NCBI RefSeq assembly: GCF_014692515.1
Contig: NZ_JACOIK010000001.1
Span: 62,001 to 126,000, forward strand
Length of the DNA stretch: 64,000 bases
Direction: 5' to 3'
DNA from: Sphingobacterium micropteri
Lineage (GTDB): Bacteria > Bacteroidota > Bacteroidia > Sphingobacteriales > Sphingobacteriaceae
Part shown: positions 34,777 through 53,101 of the stretch, piece by piece
Numbering within the stretch: position 1 is the stretch's first letter
Layout of the letters: each line of letters opens with the position of its first letter
Translations under genes and position numbers: made by a program
The notes under the pieces: generated by a model
The model's input: the letters and a program-made list of their open reading frames with translations, nothing else
The model's database searches: none
Told to the model about the DNA's origin: nothing

Positions 34777-36201
34777 ATGAAATCTCTTTCTTTTTTATTT
34801 TTTTTTCTCGCGTTTGTTTCCGTATCGTTTGCGAACGATCCTTCTCAATTAGTGGTTTACCCAGCTCCGCAAGGCGCTTTATTGAATGACGATTTTGTGG
34901 TCAAAGTAAAGAATCCTGGCAAGGACTGGCAAGTTGTTCCAAACCATCTCGTTAAAGTTGATGAAGTTCGGGATGCGAAACATCATGTAGAGGATGCCTC
35001 TATGGCGTTTTTTGATTTTTCAGGAAACGTAGAAGTGTCCGTTACTTACAAAAAGGGAGATATATCCAAAGCACGCGTACGCCCCTTGTCTTATGGTATT
35101 GAACCGCAAATTAAAGGCAATACGTTGACATTTGTTTTGGATGAACCGCGTAATCTATCCGTGGAAGTGAACGATGATATTTTTCATAACCTGCATCTGT
35201 TTGCCAATCCAATGGTAGAAGAGATCCCCGATAAAAACCGTGCAGATGTGGTATACTTTGGGCCCGGGATACATGAGTTTAAGGATGCGGAATTTCATGT
35301 GCCATCCAACACGACGGTATATGTAGATGGTGGAGCAATCCTACGCGGTCAATTGTTGATACACGATGCAGAAAACGTGAACGTGATCGGTCGGGGCATG
35401 GTGGAGCATACAGTGAAGATGGGAATCCATATTGCCAATGCAAAGAATATCTACGTAGAAGGTCTTTTTACGACCCAATGTGCGGTGGGCGGCTCCGATG
35501 GGGTAACGGTACGGAATGTGAAAAGCATCAGTTATTATGGTTGGGGTGATGGAATGAATGTCTTTGCCAGTAACAATGTGTATCATGACGGTGTTTTTTG
35601 TAGAAACTCAGACGACTGTACCACGGTATACGCCACGCGCAAGGGGTTCGAAGGTGGGTGTAAGAATATACGGATGGAAAACTCCACTTTGTGGGCAGAT
35701 GTGGCCCATCCGATTTTTATTGGTATCCACGGAAATGCGGATAATCCGGATACGATTGAAGATGTTGTTTATCGGAATATCGATATTCTGGATCATAAGG
35801 AAGTACAGTTGGACTATCAAGGTTGTTTGGCGATTAATGCTGGCGACAATAATACCATTCGGAATGTACTTTTTGAGGATATACGCATTGAAGATTTTCG
35901 GCAGGGACAGCTTGTGAATTTGCGTGTCTTTTTCAACGAAAAATATTGTCCTGCTCCCGGGAAGTTAATTGAAAATATCACCTTTAAAGATATCAGCTAC
36001 GAAGGTGACGGTGGAGAGATATCTATTATTGCCGGATATAACGAAGAACGTAAGGTAAAGAATATCACGTTCCAAAATCTGCGTATAAACGGCAAACTGA
36101 TTACAGACAATATGCCGGATAAACCAAAATGGTATAAGACGGGCGACATGGCACGTATTTTTATCGGGGAGCATGTGGAAAACGTTCAGTTTATTCCGTA
36201 A
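34777..36201 (+). CDS. Right-handed beta-helix glycosidase, GH28/GH49-like
   Basis: Three in-frame ATGs exist (34732, 34753, 34777). The last gives a compact signal peptide (ending SFAND) and avoids overlap with GH97; 34753 is also possible. The 474-residue mature-type protein has an N-terminal beta-sandwich then a parallel beta-helix with repeated coils of the NVNVIGRG and NIRMENS kind. The block CRNSDDCTTVYATR resembles the aspartate pair of GH28 polygalacturonases and GH49 dextranases. The GH28 Gly-His-Gly motif is not obvious; FIGIHGN lies where it might be expected. It is probably periplasmic and acts on oligosaccharides from the locus. Family assignment below the fold level is uncertain. 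Confidence 0.65.
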   Translation: MKSLSFLFFFLAFVSVSFANDPSQLVVYPAPQGALLNDDFVVKVKNPGKDWQVVPNHLVKVDEVRDAKHHVEDASMAFFDFSGNVEVSVTYKKGDISKARVRPLSYGIEPQIKGNTLTFVLDEPRNLSVEVNDDIFHNLHLFANPMVEEIPDKNRADVVYFGPGIHEFKDAEFHVPSNTTVYVDGGAILRGQLLIHDAENVNVIGRGMVEHTVKMGIHIANAKNIYVEGLFTTQCAVGGSDGVTVRNVKSISYYGWGDGMNVFASNNVYHDGVFCRNSDDCTTVYATRKGFEGGCKNIRMENSTLWADVAHPIFIGIHGNADNPDTIEDVVYRNIDILDHKEVQLDYQGCLAINAGDNNTIRNVLFEDIRIEDFRQGQLVNLRVFFNEKYCPAPGKLIENITFKDISYEGDGGEISIIAGYNEERKVKNITFQNLRINGKLITDNMPDKPKWYKTGDMARIFIGEHVENVQFIP

Positions 36202-51295: not shown

Positions 51296-53101
51296 ATGGA
51301 TAATTTTATTGTTTCAGCACGGAAATATCGCCCCGTTACCTTCGACTCTGTTGTTGGTCAGCAGCATATTACCAGCACGCTCAAAAATGCGATCCACAAC
51401 AATCAACTGGCACAAGCCTTTTTGTTTTGTGGGCCACGTGGCGTAGGGAAAACAACCTGTGCCCGTATTTTGGCGAAAACAATAAATTGTGAACAGATCA
51501 GCGAACAGGTAGAAGCTTGTGGTACTTGTGATAGCTGCAAATCTTTTCAACAAGGAAATTCCTTCAGTATTCATGAGTTAGATGCGGCCTCTAATAATTC
51601 GGTAGACGATATCCGGAGCCTAATTGAGCAAGTTCGAATTCCTCCTCAAGCCGGTAAATATAAAATCTATATTATTGACGAGGTGCACATGCTTTCGCAG
51701 GCAGCTTTCAATGCCTTTTTGAAAACGCTGGAAGAACCTCCGTCGTATGCTATTTTTATCTTGGCAACGACAGAAAAACACAAGATTCTTCCTACTATTC
51801 TTTCCCGTTGTCAGATATTTGACTTCAATCGGATAAAGGTAGAGGATATGGCGAACCACCTAGCTTCCATTGCACAAAAGGAAGAAATAGCGTTTGAGTC
51901 GGATGGATTGCATATTATTGCCCAAAAAGCGGATGGCGGACTTCGGGATGCGTTGTCCATGTTTGATCAGATTGTTAGTTTTTCGAATAAAAATATTACG
52001 TATCAAACGGTTATCGATAATCTGAATATCCTGGATTACGATTATTATTTTCAGCTGATGGATCGTGTGGCGGCAGAAGATGCGGCACAGGCATTGCTGA
52101 TTTTTGATAAAGTCTTAAATAATGGCTTCGATGGAGGTCACTTCATTAGCGGTCTGGCAACACATACGCGGAATCTATTAGTTTCTAAAGAACCGGCAAC
52201 GCTAAAATTGCTTGAAGTGAGTGAGAATATAAAACGAAAGTATCTGGAGCAATCCCAGGCACTTAGTTCAGGACTCTTACTCTCGGTGTTGAATATTGCC
52301 AACCAGTGCGAAATTAATTATAAAAGCAGTAAGAACCAACGTTTACAGGTAGAGTTGGCATTATTAAAGATGTGTCATCTCGCGTCAGCTATTTTACTGA
52401 GTCAGCAGGGAAATTTTACACCCTCTGTTACGGCAGAGGTAAAAAAAAAACTCCCTGACCCAGCTGTAAGCCGCCCAAAGGCTGTCGTTAACGATATTCC
52501 TACACCAAAACCATCAACAACACCTACGGTACCGCAAGCATCTGCGCCTATACAGGTACCAGCTACCGCTTCTACGCCGGTTATAGAGAAATCTACCGGA
52601 GCAGATACGAATACCTCCGTGAAAAAGGGATGGGGTAAAATTTCAGCCTCTGTGAACGTACCCAACTTAAATACGATATTTGAGGATAAGGTTGAAGCAG
52701 AGACGGATGAACCAGACCTTGTTCAAGGGGATACGTTTCGAGAGGTTACTTTCAATACATTTATTACGCAATGGAATGCATTTGCAGATCGTTTGAAGCA
52801 AACGAACCGCATTACGCTATATACGATTATGACGGCTAACCCTCCACGTTTAAACGGTGTGATGGTTGAAGTGGACGTGGAGAACGGGGTACAGATGGAC
52901 GAACTCAAATTAGGTAAAATAGATATTCTAAATTACTTGCGCGTGGAGCTGCAAAATTTTTCACTCGACTTAACGGGTGTACAAGTAGAAGTCACCAAAG
53001 TTCGAAAGCCTTATACTTCGGTGGAAAAATACCAGGCAATGGTTTCTAAGAACCCTGCATTGGAAACCTTGCGTAAAGCATTTAATCTCGGGTTGAGTTA
53101 A
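51296..53101 (+). CDS. dnaX: DNA polymerase III subunits gamma/tau
   Basis: The 601-residue protein is the clamp-loader ATPase of the replisome. It has Walker A GPRGVGKTT (residues 46-54), a zinc module with four cysteines (NCEQ, CGTCDSC), Walker B IIDEVHML, and a sensor SRC motif. Domain III helices follow to about residue 380, then a proline/threonine-rich linker and a C-terminal domain (about 470-601) for polymerase contact. Ten adenines at codons 382-385 lie exactly at the end of domain III and could yield a short gamma form. The start ATG is immediately before the conserved FIVSARKYRP opening. It follows DUF1080 after 153 bp; TATCTTCG at 51284 may be its -7 element. Confidence 0.96.
   Translation: MDNFIVSARKYRPVTFDSVVGQQHITSTLKNAIHNNQLAQAFLFCGPRGVGKTTCARILAKTINCEQISEQVEACGTCDSCKSFQQGNSFSIHELDAASNNSVDDIRSLIEQVRIPPQAGKYKIYIIDEVHMLSQAAFNAFLKTLEEPPSYAIFILATTEKHKILPTILSRCQIFDFNRIKVEDMANHLASIAQKEEIAFESDGLHIIAQKADGGLRDALSMFDQIVSFSNKNITYQTVIDNLNILDYDYYFQLMDRVAAEDAAQALLIFDKVLNNGFDGGHFISGLATHTRNLLVSKEPATLKLLEVSENIKRKYLEQSQALSSGLLLSVLNIANQCEINYKSSKNQRLQVELALLKMCHLASAILLSQQGNFTPSVTAEVKKKLPDPAVSRPKAVVNDIPTPKPSTTPTVPQASAPIQVPATASTPVIEKSTGADTNTSVKKGWGKISASVNVPNLNTIFEDKVEAETDEPDLVQGDTFREVTFNTFITQWNAFADRLKQTNRITLYTIMTANPPRLNGVMVEVDVENGVQMDELKLGKIDILNYLRVELQNFSLDLTGVQVEVTKVRKPYTSVEKYQAMVSKNPALETLRKAFNLGLS
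52441..52450 (+). promoter_or_regulatory. A10 slippery tract in dnaX, candidate gamma/tau switch
   Basis: Ten consecutive adenines follow AGAGGT within codons Val382-Lys385. In the -1 frame (or with one extra A) reading continues Thr-Pro-stop; in the +1 frame (or with one A lost) it meets TAA after six codons. Either slip would give a protein of about 387-390 residues, ending right after clamp-loader domain III. Confidence 0.6.

Follow-up and report, generated by a model that had tools for sequence, protein, structure and literature searches.

A conserved A run with a predicted 5' hairpin in Bacteroidia dnaX genes, a candidate transcriptional-slippage site for tau and gamma

The dnaX gene of Thermus thermophilus is expressed by transcriptional slippage (Larsen et al. 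2000), which yields messages with one or several extra A, according to the passages on this gene in PMC1088944 and PMC5009743. The RNA-DNA hybrid within RNA polymerase is given there as 9-10 bp (PMC5009743, Figure 18 legend). E. coli dnaX uses -1 ribosomal frameshifting at a shift site A_AAA_AAG that is preceded by a Shine-Dalgarno stimulator and followed by a stem-loop (dnaX passage of PMC5009743). The GeneTack screen collected 17 two-ORF dnaX genes from 12 genera in which tau needs a change of frame, and its authors propose slippage; the dnaX part of that paper lists nine genes with 10 As and gives runs of 9, 8 and 7 for Chloroherpeton and two Chlorobium species (PMC3711429). In a Roseiflexus IS element (Penno et al. 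2015) a stem-loop in the nascent RNA, immediately 5' of the slippage motif, enables RNA polymerase to realign, as described in the corresponding section of PMC5009743. Here we analyze a dnaX gene in a 64-kb stretch of DNA (64,000 nucleotides, hereafter the window) together with its counterparts in related genomes. Sequence comparison makes it quite probable that a run of ten A (A10) in this gene is a programmed transcriptional-slippage site making both tau and gamma.

The A run and nearby stops in the window dnaX

The gene was identified as DNA polymerase III gamma/tau by profile matches to NCBIfam PRK14971 (825.9 bits, cut-off 685) and TIGR02397 (439.7 bits, cut-off 250). The features that bear on its expression are given by window position.

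51296 to 53101, + strand: dnaX, a single open frame for full-length tau of 601 aa (from sequence and profile matches)
52441 to 52450, + strand: A10, the putative slippage run, from the last base of codon 382 to the end of codon 385 (from sequence; of 252 genomes, 225 have nine or more A here)
52456 to 52458, + strand: TGA that would end a putative gamma of 387 residues upon gain of one A or a ribosomal -1 shift (from sequence)
52467 to 52469, + strand: TAA that would end a putative gamma of about 390 residues upon loss of one A or gain of two (from sequence)
52451 to 53098, + strand: tau-specific linker and C-terminal tail, made only when the frame is kept (from sequence and an NCBIfam match; shifted-frame tails elsewhere match the tail HMM)

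The clamp-loader domains end at residue 364 with domain III (Pfam DNA_pol3_gamma3, residues 243-364), and A10 lies just downstream. The in-frame context is GCA GAG GTA AAA AAA AAA CTC CCT GAC, in which GTA is codon 382. Past the run the -1 frame reads ACT CCC TGA, with its stop (52456-52458) two codons away, so that one additional A leads to TGA after Thr-Pro. The +1 frame reads TCC CTG ACC CAG CTG TAA and closes five codons away (52467-52469). The preliminary description had placed ten A at codons 382-385 with close stops in both shifted frames, and on re-reading the sequence its account proved exact.

The dnaX run is the longest homopolymer of the window, where the sole other homopolymer of nine or more is a T9 at 34798-34806. 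A first-order Markov model of the window gives an expectation of about 0.9 runs of ten or more A per 64 kb, whereas both strands of the 4.85-Mb genome hold only nine separate sites (11 hits, three of which overlap in one A12), so such runs look avoided. A hairpin of the kind found upstream of the dnaX run (-10.1 kcal/mol) is present at dnaX only, the other eight sites giving 0 to -3.5 kcal/mol.

Three further A10 runs lie within open frames of the genome, at G000:C13:8461-8470, C36:74457-74466 and C36:267382-267391 (L350, L352 and L354). Their frames have about 611, 598 and 394 codons with the run at codons 109, 99 and 251, and they lack an upstream hairpin; these may be further slippage sites or noise. 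At G000:C34:144413-144422 and C38:255593-255602 (L351 and L356) an ATG followed by A10 starts an open frame.

The run and the frame layout among relatives

The best named loci belong to Mucilaginibacter and Pedobacter, which places the genome in their family, Sphingobacteriaceae; compared by eye, the contexts of two of these loci are the same, or almost the same, as in genomes of genera g14 and g15 of this family. The genus is probably Sphingobacterium. The homologous run was defined as the longest A run inside the 65 codons past DnaX residue 355 and was read in 252 genomes, each counted once. These comprise 68 genomes of the genus (60 plus eight more), 66 from the rest of the family (62 of 71 with a dnaX match, plus four; 23 genera), 78 of 144 other-family genomes from the rest of the class and 40 of 111 from other classes of the phylum. 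Loci past the automatic best 30 were hand-picked, before the runs were read, to span genera and families, and a few of these were taken because dnaX appeared split in two or had a short open frame. As related genomes are not independent, group means and a tree were used.

A run of nine or more A was found at the homologous place in 225 of the 252 genomes and was missing from 27. It is present throughout the genus (68/68) and the rest of the family (66/66), in 67/78 genomes from the rest of the class (49 of 60 families) and in 24/40 from other classes (12 of 23 families). Lengths are strongly concentrated, with 175 runs of ten, 28 of nine, 20 of 11, one of 12 and one of 13, plus four of seven and none of eight. 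In the same genes the longest A run of the N part (codons before 355) is eight or fewer in every genome, and in 540 nt of the tail it reaches nine or ten in five genomes and is shorter in the remainder. To judge from these comparisons, the A run at the dnaX place is not due to chance. Depending on lineage, the run begins at codon position 1, 2 or 3, and the codon phase of the run has changed at least 40 times on the DnaX tree. That all three phases occur, with so many changes between them, indicates that the nucleotides are kept rather than the peptide. The preliminary description had proposed as a check that the run should be kept in relatives while the codons drift, and the outcome was strongly positive.

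The stops near the run show a similar regularity. Where tau is in frame, an early double stop (within three codons in the -1 frame and five in the +1 frame) follows the run in 153 of 177 genes and is lacking in 24; at control codons of the same genes such double stops occur at 7.7% (N part) and 8.9% (tail). The 177 include two genes cut by a contig end, and the tail-HMM analysis counts 175. A run kept for a lysine-rich peptide, as in a basic linker, with stops and fold as by-products, has one point in its favor, in that AAA accounts for 66% of Lys codons in the N part of the genes and short AAA runs therefore arise easily. This explanation is scarcely credible, however, given that the phase changes yield different peptides, that A10 is uninterrupted and without AAG, that close double stops occur in 153/177 genes versus 8-9% at control codons, that synonymous sites favor the hairpin described below and that out-of-frame forms exist. 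Peptide-level selection was rejected because the run changes both codon phase and frame.

A shifted tau tail, with a zero frame that closes within five codons of the run, was found in 45 genomes, although owing to the hand-picking of loci this share is not an unbiased frequency. An HMM built from the tau tails of in-frame genes matched 44 of the 45 shifted tails at E <= 5.3e-7, and that of G453 only at 0.07. The -1 frame holds 41 of these tails, for which one extra A restores tau; the other four, in G005, G110, G257 and G354, are in the +1 frame. In-frame and shifted layouts share a common rule, which is that after the run two frames close soon and the third opens into the tau tail. The layout switched at least 24 times among 219 genomes on a FastTree tree, an approximate count in which some single-genome cases may be assembly errors; G005, which has several stops within dnaX, and G050, G037, G224, G126 and G130, in which the tail is cut or broken, were excluded from the tree.

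Changes of length in the DNA itself, by phase variation or by assembly errors in homopolymers, might account for the shifted forms and would leave the run of this genome inert. Lone out-of-frame genomes within in-frame genera (G036, G042, G074, G108 and G110) could indeed be real indels or base-calling errors, and G005 carries several stops inside dnaX. Against this, the shifted layout is shared consistently by entire groups, namely each of the six species examined in genus g11 (of which five have a readable tail), 2/2 of family f67, 3/3 of f80 and 4/6 of f69. Length change in DNA also leaves the close double stops and the covarying hairpin unexplained, and it is at odds with the essentiality of dnaX, a gene essential in well-studied bacteria. 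We consider this explanation very unlikely.

Outside the class, a layout mostly with gamma in frame and tau in the -1 frame was seen at L237, L245 and L253 (f80), L241 and L251 (f67) and L255, L256, L259 and L260 (f69). Taken as a group f80, f67 and f69 give no 5' hairpin signal; as single genes, L259 and L260 fold well upstream of the run. Two other loci, L084 (G037) and L221 (G130), have the usual A10 layout and a second break in the tau tail, 53 and 87 codons past the run, which is due to either a pseudogene or an assembly error.

A second set of 80 named dnaX loci, drawn partly from the same genomes as the 252, contains a run of nine or more A in 58 and lacks it in 22. Loci with the run include members of Pedobacter, Mucilaginibacter, Hymenobacter, Dyadobacter, Chitinophaga, Aureispira, Chryseobacterium, Rikenellaceae and Odoribacteraceae. 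Both shifted frames close early in 30 of 45 named loci, and where the tau tail is shifted it is in the -1 frame at 13 loci and in the +1 frame at none. None of the eight named loci of Bacteroidaceae (five: L301, L302, L312, L322 and L331) and Prevotellaceae (three: L296, L335 and L346) has a run of nine or more A, the longest run there being 3-4. As other families of the class keep the run, its absence from these loci appears to be a natural loss of the putative slippage site. With the run absent from 27/252 genomes and 22/80 named loci, gamma made by slippage would be dispensable in some lineages.

The predicted hairpin 5' of the run

A predicted RNA fold directly precedes the run.

52422 to 52439, + strand: RNA hairpin CCUCUGU-UACG-GCAGAGG, seven pairs with a UACG loop, ending 1 nt before the A run (predicted fold)

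Its energy is -10.1 kcal/mol (z -3.70), and none of 200 shuffled sequences folded as low. No Rfam match at gathering score was obtained in the window. In the relatives, folding z of the 30 nt ending at the run is -1.54 for the genus, -1.55 as a mean over 23 genera and -1.03 as a mean over 49 families, and six or nine nt further upstream it is zero or above. Against a null in which amino acids were kept and synonymous codons resampled, the fold at the run deviates with p 2.5e-5 over genera and 3.8e-5 over families; weaker deviations occur upstream in the family at -60 (group z -0.50, p 0.0089) and in the class at -30 (z -0.35, p 0.027). A fixed-geometry stem scan points in the same direction as folding and is noisier; its group-level p is 6e-4 across 23 genera and 1.7e-6 across 49 families, and in other classes it falls short of significance (p 0.15).

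Covariation was observed by exchanging hairpin arms between genomes. The exchange raised the mean energy from -6.4 to -3.9 in the genus, from -7.0 to -4.0 in the family and from -6.2 to -3.8 in the class, with z at the run of -10.0, -13.2 and -9.0, respectively, whereas control windows 12-90 nt upstream in the genus, family and class sets gave z between -2.5 and +1.6. Within the genus single stem pairs are seen as A-U, U-A and C-G, in a table of sequences selected for at least four consecutive pairs. There are two main hairpin geometries in the genus alone, and stem length and loop vary between clades.

At the run, 151 of 201 Bacteroidia genes have a fold of -5 kcal/mol or lower, whose end is mostly 0-5 nt away, compared with 60, 52, 30 and 39 of the 201 in windows 30, 60, 90 and 120 nt upstream. 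The effect is weaker in the named loci, where such folds occur at the run in 26/56 versus 14, 25, 13 and 9 of 56 at 9, 30, 60 and 90 nt upstream, and mean energy is -5.56 at the run versus -3.31, -4.31, -3.23 and -2.66 at the same distances. Among the 24 genomes of other classes that keep the run, no hairpin signal was detected by folding z, the synonymous null or arm exchange (exchange z -1.2), and folds of -5 kcal/mol or lower occur in 5/24 at the run versus 5 to 7 of 24 in control windows. The modeled hairpin is best described as a position-specific, covarying trait of the class, not of all dnaX genes with an A run. Since the signal is absent from other classes that keep the run, the hairpin would not be needed everywhere.

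The position of this structure bears on whether the ribosome could make gamma by a programmed -1 shift on an A_AAA_AAA inside the run in the manner of E. coli (and likewise tau, for tails in the -1 frame). That heptamer is present in A10 whatever the phase. Under insertion-dominated slippage, tau tails are expected to be more common in the -1 frame, and the 41 of 45 shifted tails found there fit a ribosomal -1 shift equally well. Downstream of the run a weak fold signal is seen as well (z -0.71 at +18 in the genus, group z -0.60 at +9 in the class), although no peak there compares with that on the upstream side. Seven A suffice for a ribosomal A_AAA_AAA site, whereas the runs are nine or longer, with seven in four genomes and eight in none. 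A -1 shift likewise does not call for the close stop in the +1 frame, nor for the four tails in the +1 frame (one of them, that of G005, from a doubtful assembly). The window dnaX has no A_AAA_AAG heptamer, as its run reaches ten A and is then followed by C. The E. coli Shine-Dalgarno stimulator has a spacing of about 10 nt; in the run-bearing genes a Shine-Dalgarno-like motif was found at -18 to -6 in only 1/225 and in 0/68 of the same-genus genes, the window gene included. Finally, the structure sits 5' and abuts the run, and PMC6321510 reports that -1 shifting is attenuated by an upstream hairpin next to the shift site. Ribosomal frameshifting is therefore an unlikely source of the two products, though a less improbable one than length change in DNA.

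Proposed mechanism and comparison with known systems

The preliminary description had suggested that a truncated gamma of about 387 residues is made by RNA polymerase slippage or by frameshifting. The comparison with relatives supports the truncated product as a reading of the sequence, and of the two mechanisms the run lengths, phases, double stops, tails in both directions and 5' hairpin favor RNA polymerase slippage. Two points go beyond that description, namely the hairpin and the reversed forms, in which gamma is in frame and tau would be made by slippage.

We infer that RNA polymerase slips at this site, that the hairpin has a role in slippage and that gamma is made and used. As RNA polymerase transcribes A10, the RNA-DNA hybrid would turn into pure rA:dT and could realign, and a nascent hairpin abutting the run would help the polymerase to slip. 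Messages with ten A (or 10 + 3n) would give tau of 601 aa, whereas those with other numbers of A would run into a nearby stop and give gamma of about 387-390 aa, which would consist of domains I-III without the tau tail. For most Bacteroidia lineages we lean, with less assurance than for the site itself, toward a broader proposal. In these lineages an essential replication gene would carry a slippage cassette, a nascent hairpin plus an A tract as long as the hybrid, resembling an intrinsic terminator in which A replaces U. The gamma:tau ratio would be set by RNA polymerase instead of the ribosome, and the default product would have been switched some twenty times or more through small changes in or beside the run.

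If this is correct, programmed RNA polymerase slippage would be a regular element of how replisome genes are expressed in much of a major phylum of bacteria, and dnaX genes of the phylum that look truncated or frameshifted could be intact. The hairpins, lengths and frames of about 200 natural variants could then be used to work out how a nascent hairpin drives slippage. The natural losses (none of the eight Bacteroidaceae and Prevotellaceae named loci has the run) would allow one to ask whether gamma is needed.

Slippage in Thermus dnaX and two-ORF dnaX genes with 10 As are already known, the latter from the dnaX part of PMC3711429. What appears to be new is the hairpin abutting the 5' side of the dnaX run. 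Among the matches listed, no title or abstract dealt with a 5' hairpin at dnaX or with the in-frame Bacteroidota genes; that search covered main texts and few subscription papers, and is thus not proof of novelty.

The window dnaX resembles Thermus dnaX, in the aspects that the slippage passages cover, in having an A run, close stops in both other frames, a full-length tau and a gamma that would arise by slippage. It differs in that the Thermus run has 9 A, whereas here there are 10 A and a conserved predicted hairpin, together with relatives whose tau needs a slip. The GeneTack screen detects broken frames, so that in-frame genes such as the window dnaX would escape it, and its account of dnaX, in the passages concerned, mentions neither a 5' hairpin nor a count of layout switches (PMC3711429). 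With E. coli dnaX the window gene shares the gene itself, a comparable place in it and the same two products, gamma here being a predicted one (compared with the dnaX passage of PMC5009743). Unlike in E. coli, the upstream motif is found in 1/225 genes and the clear structure lies upstream. The Roseiflexus IS element likewise has a stem-loop directly 5' of its slippage motif, the one here being a predicted fold. That element has a T5C5 motif, loses one C and encodes a transposase, whereas the present site is an A10 in a chromosomal replication gene (section on this element in PMC5009743). In its geometry, with a predicted hairpin right next to a tract that equals the hybrid in length, the dnaX site matches the Roseiflexus slippage site.
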